39,151 bases of DNA, taken from the NCBI GenBank assembly GCA_015521205.1, contig WAOQ01000039.1:1-39151 (forward strand). Direction: 5' to 3'. The DNA comes from Desulfurococcales archaeon (GTDB lineage Archaea > Thermoproteota > Thermoprotei_A > Sulfolobales > Acidilobaceae). Of this stretch, positions 6,249-39,151 are shown in pieces. The notes beneath the pieces are model-generated. The model saw only the letters and a list, made by a program, of their open reading frames with translations. It did not search any database and had not been told where the DNA came from. Each line of letters begins with the position of its first letter. Position 1 is the stretch's first letter. The position numbers were made by a program, and so were the translations under genes.

Positions 6249-8567
6249 TCAGGAGGGCTCGACACCAGAAAGTGATTCTTTAAGCCCTGTAAGCCCCTTT
6301 CTAGCCTTGATTATTTGTGATATTTGGGCATAGATAAACAGTACTGCCGTCAACGCTATCAGATAGTCATTCATTGATACTGCGGCGATCGATACGACGA
6401 TCAAGGTGTACCTTAGTATCCGTGATTTTATGTGCCCGAATAGCCATCCGGTGAACCCGCTCGAAGCCGCGTGAATTATCATCACTGCAGCCAACGTGAC
6501 TTTTAGCAATTGAATATAATCAGCAGTTCTCCAAACTACTATCGATGTTACCAGTAGTTGTGGGCTTGCCACGAAGATGAATGGTAGGATATACTTTGCG
6601 AAGCCGTACTTTGTCGCGTTTATAGCTGTCTTCCAGAAGTCCGCTCCCGCCAAGACGGCGCCCACGAAGGCTGCCAATGCGACTGGAGGCGTTATGTCGG
6701 CAAGGATTCCATAGTAGAATACAAACATGTGACTTGCGAATTCCGCTGTGCTAGTTCTAGCGTTTAATGATAAACCTAGAGCTTCCGCATACGTATTCAA
6801 CTGGTAACCGTTGGGATAGTGGAGCCATAGGGTTGCGGCCGTGACTATTGCTGGGGCTAGTACGGTGCTTGTGATGATATAGTTTGCGGTTGTTGGAACT
6901 CCCATACCTAGTATTATTGAGAATATTGCAGTGAGTAATAGTAGCAGGTAGATGTATCCGCCGCTTATGTCGATGAGTACTCCTGCTAGTTTCTGTGGCA
7001 GCTGTGTGAATATGATCATGGATTGAACAATGCTTGCCGATGCTGCGGCCAGGAATACGGGTACGCTGTTCCTCAGAGTTAGTTCAATGCTATTTATGGT
7101 GGCTTTGGCTAGCTGTTTGGCTCCACGTATTCTTAGTCCTGGATAGACTGTATAGAGGAACATAACTACGCCCATCACTAGCAAAGATGACCCGAATGTA
7201 AGTCCTATGGCCATGAAGAGAGCCGTCGAGCCCAATACGATGAGCGTCACTATTATCTTGTGTATCCTGGGTACAGCGTCTGCTGCCAGCCAAGCAACAT
7301 ATATGGCGCTTCCAAGAGATGCTATCACGGCATGTTGCGGGCTTAGCTTTAGAAGTGCTACAATAATTATGAATATGGGGAGTGTCAGATAGAGTTTCTT
7401 GAGGAGCCTTGCCCTATCCGGTAGCTCCTCTTTTGTAAGAGGCCTCATGTGAAGTCTTTTCGCTTCCTTATCGACGAAGACGTAGATGCTGTAGAAGTAG
7501 AGTACTGCTGGTAGGGCGGCTGCTATCATTATGTCCCTATAGGGTCTGCCGAGGAATTCTGCCATTATGAAAGCTGCGGCTCCCATTATGGGGGGCATGA
7601 GCTGTCCTCCCGTGCTTGCTACTGGTTCTACTGCGCCGGCTATCTCTGGTGGGAAGCCTGCCCTCTTCATTGTGGGTATGGAGAAAGTTCCTGTGGTTAA
7701 GACGTTAGCTACACTGCTACCTGATATCATTCCCATGAGCATGCTTGATACTACTGCTACTTTTGCCGGCCCTCCGGGTCTTGTTCCGAAGAGTGACAGT
7801 ATGAGTTCTGTTATGTAGCGTCCTATGCCCATTTGTTCTAGGATGGAGCTGAAGAAGAGGAATGCGAAGACGTAGATTATCATTACTTCGAGTGGTACTC
7901 CTAGTACTCCCGTGTTTTGCCCTATCATCTGGTTGAAAATGAAGCGGAGGCCTTCTTCGAGGCCTTTCCCTCTTGCATAGGCTACGTCTATGGCGTATCG
8001 GAATCCATAGCCGAGGAATACTACTACGATTAGGGGTAGGATTATCCCGAAGGCTCTTCTCGTGGCTTCTAGTACAGCTATCAGTATGCCGGGTATGAAT
8101 ATTAGTTCGATTATTGTTAGCTGGGTTATACTGCCTTCTACAGTATGTGTTTTCAAATAAAGGTAGACTATGTATAGGGGCATCGCGGCTAGAACGCTTG
8201 CAATTATCCAGTCATACCATGGTATCTCTTCGGTGGGTTTACCCCTACGCATAGGATAGAGTATTATTGCTGAGAATATTATTAGCGAAAGGATTATACC
8301 TTTCCTGGGAAGCGTCTGGAAAAATATATCCGGTCTGGTCAAAATGTAAGCTGTCTCTCTGGGAACACCTAGGTGTGTTAACGCATTGATTATAGCTAGG
8401 TTGAGTCCTAGGACATAGAATAATTCGAGTATCATGAATAGAAGGGCGACTACGAATATAACTTTCCTTGCTTTACCCGTCTTGGCGCGTTCAACCATAA
8501 TCTTCTTTAGCATCTCAAGTTTTTCTTTTTCTATAGGCATTTCTTCTAGGGATACCGACTCTGACAT
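6249..8567 (-). CDS. TRAP transporter fused small/large permease (DctQM-type)
   Basis: Very hydrophobic 772-aa protein with TRAP large-subunit motifs AKVAVVSSMLMGMISGSSVANVLTTGTFSIPTMKRAGFPPEIAGAVEPVASTGGQLMPPIMGAAAFIMAEFLG and LGMGVPTTANYIITS. Confidence 0.93.
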   Translation of the reverse strand: MSESVSLEEMPIEKEKLEMLKKIMVERAKTGKARKVIFVVALLFMILELFYVLGLNLAIINALTHLGVPRETAYILTRPDIFFQTLPRKGIILSLIIFSAIILYPMRRGKPTEEIPWYDWIIASVLAAMPLYIVYLYLKTHTVEGSITQLTIIELIFIPGILIAVLEATRRAFGIILPLIVVVFLGYGFRYAIDVAYARGKGLEEGLRFIFNQMIGQNTGVLGVPLEVMIIYVFAFLFFSSILEQMGIGRYITELILSLFGTRPGGPAKVAVVSSMLMGMISGSSVANVLTTGTFSIPTMKRAGFPPEIAGAVEPVASTGGQLMPPIMGAAAFIMAEFLGRPYRDIMIAAALPAVLYFYSIYVFVDKEAKRLHMRPLTKEELPDRARLLKKLYLTLPIFIIIVALLKLSPQHAVIASLGSAIYVAWLAADAVPRIHKIIVTLIVLGSTALFMAIGLTFGSSLLVMGVVMFLYTVYPGLRIRGAKQLAKATINSIELTLRNSVPVFLAAASASIVQSMIIFTQLPQKLAGVLIDISGGYIYLLLLLTAIFSIILGMGVPTTANYIITSTVLAPAIVTAATLWLHYPNGYQLNTYAEALGLSLNARTSTAEFASHMFVFYYGILADITPPVALAAFVGAVLAGADFWKTAINATKYGFAKYILPFIFVASPQLLVTSIVVWRTADYIQLLKVTLAAVMIIHAASSGFTGWLFGHIKSRILRYTLIVVSIAAVSMNDYLIALTAVLFIYAQISQIIKARKGLTGLKESLSGVEPS

Positions 8568-33370: not shown

Positions 33371-34480
33371 ATGAGCCGAAAGATTAGAGCCGCTATCGCA
33401 GGTGTAGGAAACTGTGCAGCCGCGCTCGTACAGGGCACATTTTATTACAGGAACGCCGAAGAGGACCAGTTTATCCCTGGCATAACTAGAGTCCGAATAG
33501 GTGGCTACCACATAGGTGACATAGAATGGGTGGCTGCCTTCGATGTCTCTAAGAAGAAGGTCGGGAAAGATCTCGCCGAAGCAATTTTCGAGTCACCCAA
33601 TATAACGCCAAAATTCACGGATATACCGCCTAAACTAGGTGTCCCCGTCTCGCCGGGACCAGTTTTAGACGGTGTTGCACCTCACATGAAAGAGAAGTTC
33701 GATCCCCTGGACAGAGAGGTAGACCTAGGCGAGGTAGTTGACGTACTAAAAGAGTCGAAGGCTGATATACTCATAAACTTCCTACCAGTCGGTAGCGAGG
33801 AAGCTACGAGGTTCTATGCCAGAGCCGCGGCAGAGGCAGGGGTAGCATTCATAAATGGGATCCCCGTATTCATTGCTAGTGACGAGACTGGTTACTGGGA
33901 TAAATTTTACCGTGAGAAAGGGGTTCCGCTTGTAGGAGATGACATTAAGGGCCAGTTAGGTGCAACGGTACTTCACAGGACGCTTGTACGTTTGATGTAT
34001 ATGAGAGGTGTTAAGGTAGAGGAGACTTACCAGTTGAACATTGGCGGGAACACGGATTTTGAGAACATGCTAATGGAAGAGAGGCTTCAGAGTAAGAGAA
34101 AGAGCAAGACCGAAGCTGTAACCAGCATACTCCCCTACGGCGAAGATTTGAGGAAGGCTGGCAAGGTGAGGATAGGTCCTAGCGATTTTGTACCCTTCCT
34201 GGGCAATACGAAGATTGCCTATATCTATTTGAAGGGCACAAGTTTCGCAGGATTCCCCGTGACCATCGAGGCTAAGCTTAGCGTTGACGATAAAAGCATG
34301 TTTGCAGGCGCTATGATCGATGCCATACGAGGCACAAAGATAGCGCTGGACAGGGGGATATCAGGCATACTGCCCAGTGTTTCAGCTCCCTTCTTCAAAC
34401 ACCCTCCGATACAAGCTCCCAGCGATGAAATAGCTATGAGATGGTTTGAGGACTTCATAACTGGAAATCGAGAAAGGTAA
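33371..34480 (+). CDS. myo-inositol-1-phosphate synthase
   Basis: [89 protein letters not shown]. Confidence 0.93.
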
Positions 34481-34510: not shown

Positions 34511-34960
34511 TTATTTTCTAGGCAACCCACCCCATCTATGGGAAAGCATTTCTTCAAGTTCACCAGTTTCTCCTATTAGTTCCTCTATAAATACCTCCAA
34601 GAAGGGATTCACTCGGGCATCCACCAGGTGTCCAGCATAGACTTCGCTCTGCTGTCGAGCAAGTGTGACGTGTAGGTGCGTATATGCTCTCCCGTCGGGA
34701 CCCATGATCGTGTTTCCTAGTAGAGATATAACCTCGATAACCTTTCCGGGAAGGGCTTCCACGTCCATTGTATAGTATTTGCCTTCTGATGGTGAAAATA
34801 CTCCTATCCTAGCCCATTCCATACCACCTATTCCCACTATCTTCGCTGCTTTCACACCAAGGTTTGCTACAATATCCTCTATAGCTTTGAACGGGTTCTC
34901 GCCCTCCTGGATTTTGAGGAAGAAGGTTCTACCCCTTGTTAGTAGTGTCTTGGCTGTCAT
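34511..34960 (-). CDS. PPC/DUF296-domain protein
   Basis: GRTFFLKIQEGENPFKAIEDIVANLGVKAAKIVGIGGMEWARIGVF and AYTHLHVTLARQQSEVYAGHLVDARVNPFLEVFIEEL. Confidence 0.85.
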   Translation of the reverse strand: MTAKTLLTRGRTFFLKIQEGENPFKAIEDIVANLGVKAAKIVGIGGMEWARIGVFSPSEGKYYTMDVEALPGKVIEVISLLGNTIMGPDGRAYTHLHVTLARQQSEVYAGHLVDARVNPFLEVFIEELIGETGELEEMLSHRWGGLPRK

Positions 34961-35038: not shown

Positions 35039-35959
35039 TTACATTTTTCTGGTTGGTGATAGTCCAGAGATCAATTTGAGTATGTCGGTTCTTGTTATAA
35101 TGCCGAAAGGTCGATCGTTCTCGTCGACAACAAGTAGTCTGCCAACATCATGGCGTTCCATTATCTGTATAGCCTGGAAAATCGTATCCCTAGTCCTGAC
35201 CTTATAGAGCCGACCCTTTATCACGCATCTGGAGACCGGCTCGTCGGGGTTTGCCCCCCTGGCCACCGCACGTGCCAGGTCTGTCGTGGTGAAGAAACCG
35301 ATTATTCCTTCTTCGCCGCGGACAGGGCACCCTCTAATCCTTTTTTCGTTTAGTATCGTAGCAGCGTCGCGGAGTGTCATGTTTTCGTCGAGATAGATTA
35401 TTGGTCTACTAGCTATTTCCCCGACTGTGACGTCGGGAACGCTTGTCAATCTAGTTATGATTATGAGGAGTTGCCGTATATTATAGGCCACATGATCTAT
35501 GGTTCCCTCTATCGTTATCTTGGGTACAGGAATACTCTCTATACGTGCTTTGTATCCTTTTTTAATGTTGGTCAGGTCGCCTATAACTTTGACTACAGCT
35601 TTGCTCTCCGCTCGTGCGAACAAGTCCATTATTTCGAGGGAAAGTATACCGTAGCGGTGTTCGTTTCCCTTATCGTCAACCACGTATAGTATACCGTATA
35701 TAATGGGTTCCGCCGTTGGTTTCGTTAGTATGATTCTGCCTTTGAGGGTTGGATAATAGCCACCAAGCGGACCTGTCCGACTCTCAACTAATCCTAGGTT
35801 TTTAAGCGAGACTATTATGTTTCTAACGGTGCCTTCTTCCTTGCCTAGGTATAGGGCTACCTCCCTGCTTTTGACCATGCCTTTCTTTTTCTCGTACAGT
35901 TCTATGAGGGCTTGTAGTACCTGTCTCTGCGTCTCCGTTAACTCCGCCACTAAGACCAC
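35039..35959 (-). CDS. winged-helix plus CBS-pair transcriptional regulator
   Basis: N-terminal wHTH (SREVALYLGKEEGTVRNIIVSLKNLGLVESRTGPLGGYYPT) and C-terminal CBS repeats (TLRDAATILNEKRIRGCPV..., TIFQAIQIMERHDVGRLLVVDENDRPFGIITRTDIL). Confidence 0.88.
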   Translation of the reverse strand: MVLVAELTETQRQVLQALIELYEKKKGMVKSREVALYLGKEEGTVRNIIVSLKNLGLVESRTGPLGGYYPTLKGRIILTKPTAEPIIYGILYVVDDKGNEHRYGILSLEIMDLFARAESKAVVKVIGDLTNIKKGYKARIESIPVPKITIEGTIDHVAYNIRQLLIIITRLTSVPDVTVGEIASRPIIYLDENMTLRDAATILNEKRIRGCPVRGEEGIIGFFTTTDLARAVARGANPDEPVSRCVIKGRLYKVRTRDTIFQAIQIMERHDVGRLLVVDENDRPFGIITRTDILKLISGLSPTRKM

Positions 35960-36085
35960 ACCCCTTTTTAACCTCCTTCTTAAATGATGCCCCCATCCAT
36001 TCTCAGGGGGATGTGAAGGGCAACTATTCGGTCAATTGTTATGGATAAAATATAACTTTATATAAAAATCCCGCTGACCGACGTC

Positions 36086-36838
36086 TCAACCTTGCTTCTT
36101 TAATCGCAGAAGCTTGGCTAGAACTCTTCTAGGGACCTTGAATACTTCCCTGGCAATATGGGCTATGTAGGCATCATCCGGTATTACACTCTTGTCGTAT
36201 CCTAGTCTTAGGGCTAGCGCCTGTTTCCACACTTCTTTAGTTATTCTATCGCGTATTTCCCCCCGTGAAATGGCATCGGCAACTTTTATAGCTATATAGA
36301 AGCGAAGGTATTTCTTTATTCCTTCCTCGTGCTCTGGGAAGGCCTTTACGGTGGACGATATGAGTGTGGCAAACTTTTCTTCACCATTAAACCCGAAGAG
36401 TTCTCGTACAACCATTACACGGAATATCTTTGCTAGTAAGTTCATTGTTACCTCACCAAACATCATTTCTATAAGTTGCCTGGCCTTTTGGGGATCCCCG
36501 GACAGGAGGTATGAAACCGCTTCATCGTACTTCATCTCATTATAGAATAGTCTGTCAAATATCTCTGGGAAATCCTCGTATAGCTGCATCCCATATCGTC
36601 CGACGACGTACAGCGATATAAGCTCTTTCTCGAAAATATCGGGTGGCGTGGCTTTACCTTTAATCGGTGAGAGGCCTTCCATATTGTACGTGTCCTCGAG
36701 TAGTTTTATCAAGTCATCCCTATCAAATCCTAGCTCGGCATCTACCCGGTCGAGAAGTTTGACCCATATATCTGTAAGAACTGCTATTCTACGTCGAGTT
36801 ATCCTACTTCTTTCTTCATGCTTCTCCATCTCTAGCAC
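36086..36838 (-). CDS. alpha-helical protein of unknown function, 250 aa (possibly DUF2192-like)
   Basis: Long charged ORF with protein-like composition; family recollection is weak. Confidence 0.6.
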   Translation of the reverse strand: MLEMEKHEERSRITRRRIAVLTDIWVKLLDRVDAELGFDRDDLIKLLEDTYNMEGLSPIKGKATPPDIFEKELISLYVVGRYGMQLYEDFPEIFDRLFYNEMKYDEAVSYLLSGDPQKARQLIEMMFGEVTMNLLAKIFRVMVVRELFGFNGEEKFATLISSTVKAFPEHEEGIKKYLRFYIAIKVADAISRGEIRDRITKEVWKQALALRLGYDKSVIPDDAYIAHIAREVFKVPRRVLAKLLRLKKQG

Positions 36839-36979
36839 CTTCTACGCCTGATCTCCATGCTTTTCTATGTCCTCACCGACTGGTTTATTTATACTACATT
36901 GAAACTCATTCTATATGAGTGTCCTAGAATGGTATCGGTTTCACTACAGTAAACGTGTCATTAGGTAAAGGTGGATGTG

Positions 36980-37150
36980 ATGAAATACCTAAAAGAGAAT
37001 GTCCGGCTACTAGAATTTAACGGTTGTACCGGCAGAGTCGAGTTATGTATAGAAGAGATAACTCTAGATAAGCTGGAATCCATTCTGGAATATTTGCCTA
37101 CCCCTGTCCGGGAAAGATTTTTCCGGGTTCTCTGGGGTAAGGACGGGTGA
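36980..37150 (+). CDS. 56-aa ORF not in the supplied track
   Basis: ATG at 36980 after SD AAAGGTGGA; MKYLKENVRLLEFNGCTGRVELCIEEITLDKLESILEYLPTPVRERFFRVLWGKDG*; ends 6 bp before the next gene. Confidence 0.6.
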   Translation: MKYLKENVRLLEFNGCTGRVELCIEEITLDKLESILEYLPTPVRERFFRVLWGKDG

Positions 37151-37156
37151 TTAGGG

Positions 37157-37738
37157 GTGGAACGTGTTTTCTTCGAAGTAGTCTCTAATGACAAGTTAGC
37201 AAAGTGGGTGTTAGTCGGCATCCTTCTATTCTCATTCTCGATACTGGTTTATCCTTCGTTGCCCCCCTTCTGGTTCATCGAACAGATTAAGGAAAATATG
37301 AAAGAGAACATTTCTTCGGGCGAGGGCTTCTTTGGGGTCATGACGATGTTGCCTCTTATAATCGCTATAAATAACATTGTAGCTTCATTTTTCACGTTAG
37401 CGGGAGGCTTCATAGTAGTCGGGTATCCGACAGTCATGATATTTAATGGGTTGATAGTAGGTAGTGTAGCGCTCGATGCAGTATCCCAAAATCCCCTTGT
37501 CCCGATCTATACTTCATTAGCGGTGCACGGGATTCTAGAAATCCCTATTATAGCATTGGCAGGTAGCCTAGGCTTGGCACGCATCTTAAAATTCGCGAAG
37601 GCCTCAATAGAAGAAACTGTTGGGTTCGTTGCATTTAGCATAATCGTATTAGCCTTTATCGAGTCTTCCTTAACAATAGTGTTTATGGCGCTTGACGCGG
37701 TTTGGAGAAGTTTGTTGTTCGGGGTGCCGCTTCCTTGA
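37157..37738 (+). CDS. SpoIIM (DUF95)-like integral membrane protein
   Basis: GTG start; IIAINNIVASFFTLAGGFIVVGYPTVMIFNGLIVGSVA...YTSLAVHGILEIPIIALAGSLGLARI is the typical SpoIIM-like core. Confidence 0.85.
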   Translation: MERVFFEVVSNDKLAKWVLVGILLFSFSILVYPSLPPFWFIEQIKENMKENISSGEGFFGVMTMLPLIIAINNIVASFFTLAGGFIVVGYPTVMIFNGLIVGSVALDAVSQNPLVPIYTSLAVHGILEIPIIALAGSLGLARILKFAKASIEETVGFVAFSIIVLAFIESSLTIVFMALDAVWRSLLFGVPLP

Positions 37739-38724
37739 GTGTTGAAAGTGGGTCAGAGAGACTCGTAAACACGATCCTAGGTGAACTGAGGAATAGGCTT
37801 CTAAGCATAACTGATTCCATTAGCGGGCTAGGCGTCATATTAGAAGGATTAGATGCTTTACTCGATAACATGTTGAAAGGTGCTATACCCTCATCTTACG
37901 AAGAGACAAAGGAAGTAATGGAAGTGTTCTTTCACGCAGTACGCGTTTTGGTACCGTTCCTAGGCTCTGTCTCTACTTTAGCGGATATCGTTGAAGAGGC
38001 CTATAGCAGGGTTGAGAGAAGCGGGGATTTTTCCAAATGGATCTATATCAGCCTAGCTAAGCAAGCATCGGCTCATCTACGAGAGTTGCACGAGATGATG
38101 TTCAGATCGCTGGGTAGCCGGTGCTCGGAGGTTATAGATGGATCAAACCTTGTAGTAACAGCTATAGGCTTCTCTGAGGAAAACATTGCTTGCCTTTCAT
38201 CTATAAGCGATAGGATTTACGAGGTTGTCGTACCTATAGATGAGGTTATGAGGACTGGTATAAGGTTAAGAGATCAGGTTAGGAGAGTTGCGCCCGAGCT
38301 TTCTAGGAAGATCAGGCTAACAGTCGACTCTACAACGCTTTACATGGTTCGTCATAGCCATTATCTTGTGAGTAGTACTATGCTTGTGAGACCTGACGGT
38401 GTTGCGGTTGTACCTGTTTTATCGTATCTTCCGTTGAGGGCGGCTGGCCGTTTTGGAGTAAACGTGGTAATTCCTACATATACTTGGAACTTAATTCCGG
38501 ATAACAGGGATTATAACCCCTTACCAAAGCGTCGTTATGTTATGGGACAAGAACTAAAAGATATGTTAGTACCCCTCCTCGAAGCTGTGAAACTAGATGA
38601 TAACATGGTTCTTATTACGGAGGAAGAAGCTTTCCGCTGGGGCTCATTGGATGTCAAAAAGATCGCTGAAGAGTTTCGGCGAAAAGCTGTAAATAACATT
38701 CTGAGGGTTGGCTATGAAACATAG
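37735..38724 (+). CDS. divergent aIF2B-alpha / ISOCOT-fold-like protein
   Basis: TTG start at 37735 overlaps the SpoIIM stop as TTGA (track start 37702). Pattern LVVTAIGFSEENIACL ... RDQVRRVAPELSRKIRLTVDSTTLYMVRHSHYLVSSTMLVRPDGVAVVPVLSYLPLRAAGRFGVNVVIPTYTWNLIPD resembles the eIF2B-family C-terminal Rossmann-like half. Confidence 0.5.
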   Translation: MSVESGSERLVNTILGELRNRLLSITDSISGLGVILEGLDALLDNMLKGAIPSSYEETKEVMEVFFHAVRVLVPFLGSVSTLADIVEEAYSRVERSGDFSKWIYISLAKQASAHLRELHEMMFRSLGSRCSEVIDGSNLVVTAIGFSEENIACLSSISDRIYEVVVPIDEVMRTGIRLRDQVRRVAPELSRKIRLTVDSTTLYMVRHSHYLVSSTMLVRPDGVAVVPVLSYLPLRAAGRFGVNVVIPTYTWNLIPDNRDYNPLPKRRYVMGQELKDMLVPLLEAVKLDDNMVLITEEEAFRWGSLDVKKIAEEFRRKAVNNILRVGYET

Positions 38725-39151
38725 CAGCTTTACAATTCTAATACTCATATTTCTCTCTCTCCCTTCAACATCCATCTTACCCATGGTTGAAGGAAGCACG
38801 ACACTATCGTTCTGCCCCGGAAATTATGTGGTCTCATACCAGAATACAACGCTTAACGTCTCTGATATCACCATTTTAAGAGTTCAGGATCCCACAGAGG
38901 TTGTGGTATCGCCGCCCGGACTTCCGCTACCCAAAGTTCCACCCGGCGAGTATATGGTTAAACTAGTGAATTCATCCATACTCATCGTGTATCCTTCCAC
39001 GGTAGATGGTTGCTCTCTAGAGCCTCCGCACATAAACGTTGGTAATGAGGCAGTGATGGTTTCATTAGAGTGTGTTACGGACATTCTGTATGTGGGGATC
39101 GGCCATATTGATACAAATTCCTCGCAAGCGTTACCATTATATAGATATATG
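38714..39151 (+). CDS. secreted protein with signal peptide, truncated by the window end
   Basis: ATG at 38714 (MKHSSFTILILIFLSLPSTSILPMVEGSTTLSFCPGNYVV...), open for 146 codons to the last base; overlaps the previous gene by 11 bp. Confidence 0.7.
   Translation, partial: MKHSSFTILILIFLSLPSTSILPMVEGSTTLSFCPGNYVVSYQNTTLNVSDITILRVQDPTEVVVSPPGLPLPKVPPGEYMVKLVNSSILIVYPSTVDGCSLEPPHINVGNEAVMVSLECVTDILYVGIGHIDTNSSQALPLYRYM

Follow-up and report, generated by a model that had tools for sequence, protein, structure and literature searches.

SpoIIM-family proteins are present in all major archaeal lineages and in many bacteria; to our knowledge, only the sporulation SpoIIM member has a known role. The archaeal families (arCOG01994 and its paralogs, COG1300, PF01944) consist of multi-span membrane proteins with conserved His and Glu residues, which are mostly encoded by stand-alone genes or together with arCOG02177 or Yip1-like genes and have been proposed to function in membrane remodelling, with no mention of a link to riboflavin (PMC5898192). 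SpoIID and SpoIIP, the partners of SpoIIM in the sporulation DMP complex, lack archaeal homologs (PMC5898192). With respect to riboflavin, the bacterial transporters RibU, RibM, RibN, RibXY, ImpX, RfnT and RibZ are encoded by membrane protein genes located within rib transcription units, and riboflavin transporters of bacteria were discovered via this clustering with rib genes (PMC4418817). The literature searched, with partial coverage, yielded no connection between SpoIIM and riboflavin. As for the IF-2B fold, which is shared by the aIF2B/eIF2B regulatory subunits and ribose-1,5-bisphosphate (R15P) isomerase, known relatives form hexameric cores, and the former active site of eIF2B alpha accommodates sugar phosphates (PMC8187479).

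The locus analysed here lies at the right edge of the window, that is, the whole stretch of 39,151 nucleotides, which is one contig (C39) of a Desulfurococcales archaeon of the family Acidilobaceae; the source assembly (G000) is a MAG of 49 contigs and 0.77 Mb, 55% complete. The locus consists of four forward-strand ORFs encoding a 56-aa microprotein, a SpoIIM-like protein, a 329-aa protein denoted X and a secreted protein denoted Sec, at the positions given by the first-pass annotation (Table 1); the 6-bp gap between the microprotein and SpoIIM ORFs, the 4-bp TTGA overlap between SpoIIM and X and the 11-bp overlap between X and Sec were likewise reproduced. X has a longer alternative in-frame TTG start at 37702. 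Upstream of the first three starts lie Shine-Dalgarno-like motifs of the GGTG type (GGTGG at 36970-36974, GGGTGA at 37145-37150 and GGGGTG at 37721-37726), with a weaker GAGGG at 38703-38707 upstream of the Sec start. The divergent intergenic region contains a TATA-like element, TTTATTTATAC, at approximately 36884-36894, a putative promoter, and an Rfam search detected neither an FMN riboswitch nor any other RNA element. The same annotation held that the cluster runs past the window edge: indeed, the last ORF is open and the edge coincides with the contig end, and the cluster cannot be extended within this assembly.

Table 1. Features of the cluster and its divergent flank (window coordinates)
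Feature	Position	Strand	Remarks
Microprotein, 56 aa	36980..37150	+	ATG start; first gene of the operon
SpoIIM/DUF95, 193 aa	37157..37738	+	GTG start; PF01944, COG1300
X, 329 aa	37735..38724	+	TTG start; IF-2B / ribose-1,5-bisphosphate isomerase fold by profile
Sec, 5' part, open	38714..39151	+	ATG start; signal segment; cut by contig end
Divergent intergenic region	36839..36979		Sequence
DUF2192 protein	36086..36838	-	PF09958 E 1.6e-76; divergent neighbour, not claimed as operon member

Several other genes of the window were noted. A 772-aa DctM (TRAP transporter) protein encoded at 6249-8567 on the reverse strand is far longer than the matched 413-position Pfam model; an inositol-3-phosphate synthase (33371-34480, forward strand) has the mycothiol-type INO1 model TIGR03450 as its nearest match, with a score below the cut-off; and a PCC/DUF296 protein is encoded at 34511-34960 on the reverse strand.

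The identity of the operon becomes apparent from the genomes of relatives, which include the named Acidilobaceae records Caldisphaera, Ca. Tiamatella, Ca. Hestiella and Aeropyrum, in addition to MAGs. When profiles for SpoIIM (A1) and RibC (A2) were run against all 48 genomes of the family, SpoIIM was found 1.3-2.4 kb upstream of the gene for the archaeal riboflavin synthase (RibC) in 28 genomes from 9 other genera, and was co-directional with it in 27 of these, the exception being a genome (G022) in which ribC alone is inverted. Three further high-scoring SpoIIMs are encoded on contigs other than that of RibC: in two of these genomes (G026 and G032) the contigs end inside the operon and in the third (G068) the contig ends at SpoIIM. 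Searches against Pfam identified the neighbors as DHBP synthase RibB (E 3e-42), lumazine synthase RibH (DMRL synthase; 3e-36) and GTP cyclohydrolase III (4e-39), whereas RibC of the archaeal type matched the DMRL family weakly, as expected. The ribB and ribC genes are adjacent in 9 other genera, and the conserved block of the Acidilobaceae takes the form of a divergent DUF2192 gene followed by microprotein - SpoIIM - [X] - Sec - ribB - ribC, with ribH and GTP cyclohydrolase III downstream in some genera. In G022, the inverted ribC (5944-7098 of contig C72, locus L166) overlaps the 3' end of ribB and the order microprotein-SpoIIM-X-Sec-ribB is kept, so that the rearrangement amounts to a one-gene inversion.

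Other archaeal riboflavin clusters contain the same enzymes in the same ribB-ribC order, followed by ribH and GTP cyclohydrolase III as in Ca. Tiamatella and some others; the Acidilobaceae cluster differs in that the microprotein, SpoIIM, X and Sec precede ribB, whereas the other families of the order have either ribB as the first gene or an unrelated single-span protein ahead of it. No SpoIIM-RibC operon was detected outside the Acidilobaceae among 108 genomes of the order, including ten other families, where the sole case of neighboring SpoIIM and RibC genes involves a convergent pair 3.4 kb apart (G039). Within the family, the linkage is missing from Aeropyrum and from one other genus (g9). 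Given its absence from these two genera and from the rest of the order, the SpoIIM unit is dispensable for riboflavin synthesis as such. Chance adjacency was rejected as an explanation in view of the presence of the linkage in 9-10 genera.

These observations give strong support to the conclusion that the cluster represents the 5' half of an Acidilobaceae riboflavin operon, with the gene order beside ribB and ribC seen directly in the relatives. In the source assembly itself, ribB and ribC are the predicted continuation after Sec; queries with RibB, RibC and Sec recovered no continuation of the operon there, which says little for an assembly that is 55% complete. The proposal of the first-pass annotation that the cluster is an operon, likely co-transcribed, holds. 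The condition that it set for refutation, an order confined to close strains, did not arise, the gene order being kept in relatives from 9 other genera. Its suggestion of an envelope system has to be revised: the rest of the operon in relatives is ribB and ribC, which ties the membrane genes to riboflavin synthesis instead. A membrane envelope or lipid operon was rejected because the relatives lack such genes at this position.

DUF2192 stays beside the operon in most genera and is often joined by a wHTH-CBS protein, both genes pointing away from the operon. The window encodes this divergent pair at 35039-36838 on the reverse strand, and many Acidilobaceae genera likewise keep such a pair next to their SpoIIM-rib operon; its proteins are possible regulators of the operon.

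The SpoIIM assignment was upheld. The window protein matches PF01944 with E = 1.7e-12 and 48 bits, compared to the curated cut-off of 26.9, and this is its sole family match. As in the family at large, hydropathy, the alignment and the structural model indicate approximately five membrane helices together with a conserved His-Gly...Glu signature; the residues N73, G98, H124, G125, E128, P130 and E169 are invariant in the family alignment. The AlphaFold2 model is all-helical, with a mean pLDDT of 78, and a Foldseek search with this model gave no match in the PDB at E <= 0.001. Neither SpoIID nor SpoIIP, both of which are present in the sporulation DMP complex, was seen in the Acidilobaceae operon. 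The SpoIIMs linked to riboflavin genes score 105-252 bits against the profile, whereas those without the linkage, from Aeropyrum and two further genera, reach at most 86. All linked SpoIIMs, including the window protein, fall on one side of a branch with an SH-aLRT support of 86, separate from the SpoIIMs that stand alone in other families. The SpoIIM of Ca. Tiamatella is the nearest to that of the window in the tree, where the window branch is long and its exact place unsure.

The microprotein family members are 50-84 aa long, are always encoded immediately before SpoIIM and mostly contain 2-4 Cys residues along with a C-terminal '[DE]-C-[VI]' strand. Against the profile of its relatives, the 56-aa ORF scores 12.3 bits, compared to at most 9.1 for 2000 shuffled versions of it, and takes the top rank in a set of 160 small ORFs from the window (E = 1e-4), which identifies it, at the level of sequence, as a member of a real family. 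In the relatives, the predicted topology of Sec comprises a signal peptide, a beta domain, a Ser/Thr-rich stalk, a C-terminal TM segment and a basic tail. The Sec subgroups are mutually related (hhalign probability up to 95%); the model of one of them (L094), in which the beta domain is mostly above 85 pLDDT, had no Foldseek match in the PDB at E <= 0.001. The window Sec fragment shows no detectable sequence homology to the Sec proteins of relatives and, for this reason, is assigned by its slot in the operon and its signal segment as the putative 5' portion of a secreted protein or a single-span surface protein. With no Foldseek match in the PDB for either model, an identification of SpoIIM or Sec as an ECF S-component, a RibU-like protein or a substrate-binding protein is unsupported. 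Other families likewise encode, 5' of ribB, a protein with a signal peptide and, in most cases, a C-terminal TM segment (L114, L136, L145, L148, L105 and L129). These proteins resemble the Acidilobaceae Sec in architecture alone, with no sequence homology detected, and ribB may therefore have acquired a surface protein on more than one occasion.

Protein X diverges so fast that the window sequence on its own had no significant match in Pfam, NCBIfam or the PDB, and a scan of genome contigs with X alone yielded nothing. The positional orthologs are 10-17% identical to one another. Once they are aligned, however, the family profile retrieves from the PDB the R15P isomerases 5yfs (E 1.9e-9) and 3a11 (8.9e-8) as well as human eIF2B alpha (1.7e-6), the similarity to the aIF2B/eIF2B regulatory subunits and R15P isomerase extending over most of the length of X; hhalign comparison with IF-2B-like profiles gives a probability of 99.2%, and X of genus g9 (L073) passes the Pfam IF-2B cut-off (PF01008, 2.7e-18). 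The window X also matches an IF-2B paralog encoded in the same assembly. On these profile matches, which bear out the aIF2B/ISOCOT-like assignment of the first reading, X is a member of the aIF2B/R15P isomerase superfamily. A second, diverged IF-2B-like paralog of G000 (5147-6103 of contig C14, locus L055) has RNase HII-like and phosphohexomutase-like genes as its neighbors, a context that recurs in two other genomes (L056 in G018 and L060 in G027).

X departs from R15P isomerase and aIF2B in its divergence rate, in its location in an operon with ribB and in its active site. The Cys of the THCHS motif and the Asp of the GADS motif, which we take to be the catalytic residues from the literature on TkR15Pi and from mutant chains among the PDB entries, are replaced in the window protein by Gly and Met, respectively. 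The Cys is absent in the aligned rows of the family and the Asp is replaced by Glu or other residues in most of them, whereas some relatives keep it (L073 'TLDAV' and L077 'QADSV'). The gene is optional, being missing from several genera that retain SpoIIM-Sec-ribB, and comes and goes while ribB stays; in deep-branching Aeropyrum-like loci it lies directly before ribB, in Aeropyrum without SpoIIM and Sec. Reading X as a sensor or adaptor, as the first-pass annotation did, is plausible given that the same former active site serves eIF2B alpha for sugar phosphate binding (PMC8187479), and with both catalytic residues gone this remains the best interpretation; that X is a ligand-binding regulator or adaptor is a possibility that falls somewhat short of even odds.

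We regard a real functional coupling between the membrane genes and riboflavin synthesis as very probable. By way of mechanism, SpoIIM and the anchored ectodomain of Sec would make up a unit in the membrane that deals with the product of the co-expressed enzymes and, given that genes of bacterial riboflavin transporters sit with rib genes (PMC4418817), would most likely carry riboflavin or another flavin across the membrane. The microprotein could be an accessory subunit of this unit, and X a cytosolic sensor or adaptor, as opposed to an enzyme, that would tie it to RibB, the substrate of which is ribulose 5-phosphate. We put the probability of this explanation as a whole, a membrane module tied to flavin synthesis, likely in transport, with X as sensor or adaptor, at roughly 0.4. 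Transport itself is proposed tentatively, as the foremost among the mechanisms considered: in contrast to the bacterial riboflavin transporters, the SpoIIM protein matches neither a transporter family nor a solved fold, and the operon lacks an FMN riboswitch.

Second to transport, and unlikely in our estimate, is a role in tethering, with SpoIIM, Sec and the microprotein serving as an anchor on which an oligomeric X scaffold docks RibB and RibC, so that flavin would be made beside membrane flavoenzymes and nothing would be transported. The overlap or abutment of Sec with the beginning of ribB at almost every Acidilobaceae locus, the position of X beside ribB also in loci that lack SpoIIM and Sec and the hexameric cores built by known relatives of the IF-2B fold (PMC8187479) are all consistent with such an arrangement. 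However, the large extracytoplasmic beta domain and the Ser/Thr stalk would be superfluous for a cytosolic tether, and several genera have lost the proposed scaffold, X, yet retain SpoIIM-Sec-ribB. It is similarly unlikely that SpoIIM functions in membrane remodelling or vesicle formation, without any role in flavin metabolism, and that the genes are under one promoter with ribB-ribC for purely historical reasons. Such a role has been proposed for archaeal SpoIIM families (PMC5898192), and the linkage is limited to one family; nevertheless, SpoIIM-Sec kept to ribB-ribC where ribH and GTP cyclohydrolase III moved or were inverted, the linkage is retained in 9-10 genera, and the linked and unlinked SpoIIMs form separate groups.

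Still less probable is outward use, whereby the module would secrete flavins or load surface proteins with them as extracellular electron carriers. A surface-anchored ectodomain does share an operon with flavin synthesis, but no flavin-binding fold was recognised in Sec and the ORF tables of the operon showed no flavin transferase. Finally, we consider it very improbable that X is an active sugar-phosphate isomerase feeding RibB: although R15P isomerases are its best PDB matches, the substrate of RibB is a pentulose phosphate and the Asp is retained in L073 and L077, the replacement of the catalytic residues and the repeated loss of X while ribB persists argue against this role.

Under the preferred reading, a membrane module tied to flavin synthesis, the conserved context in cultured genera (Acidilobus and Caldisphaera) connects one SpoIIM subfamily to a defined pathway and thereby yields a testable hypothesis. 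The most far-reaching version of this hypothesis, which we consider doubtful, is an undescribed archaeal system for flavin transport or surface flavin, encoded with ribB-ribC, in which a SpoIIM permease, a type I surface protein and a Cys-containing microprotein would be controlled by X, a dead sugar-phosphate isomerase that would sense the precursor pool. If such a flavin system exists, it would represent the first small-molecule function for SpoIIM/DUF95 proteins. X is, furthermore, an independent archaeal case of an IF-2B fold without catalytic residues next to an enzyme that uses a sugar phosphate, in parallel with eIF2B.
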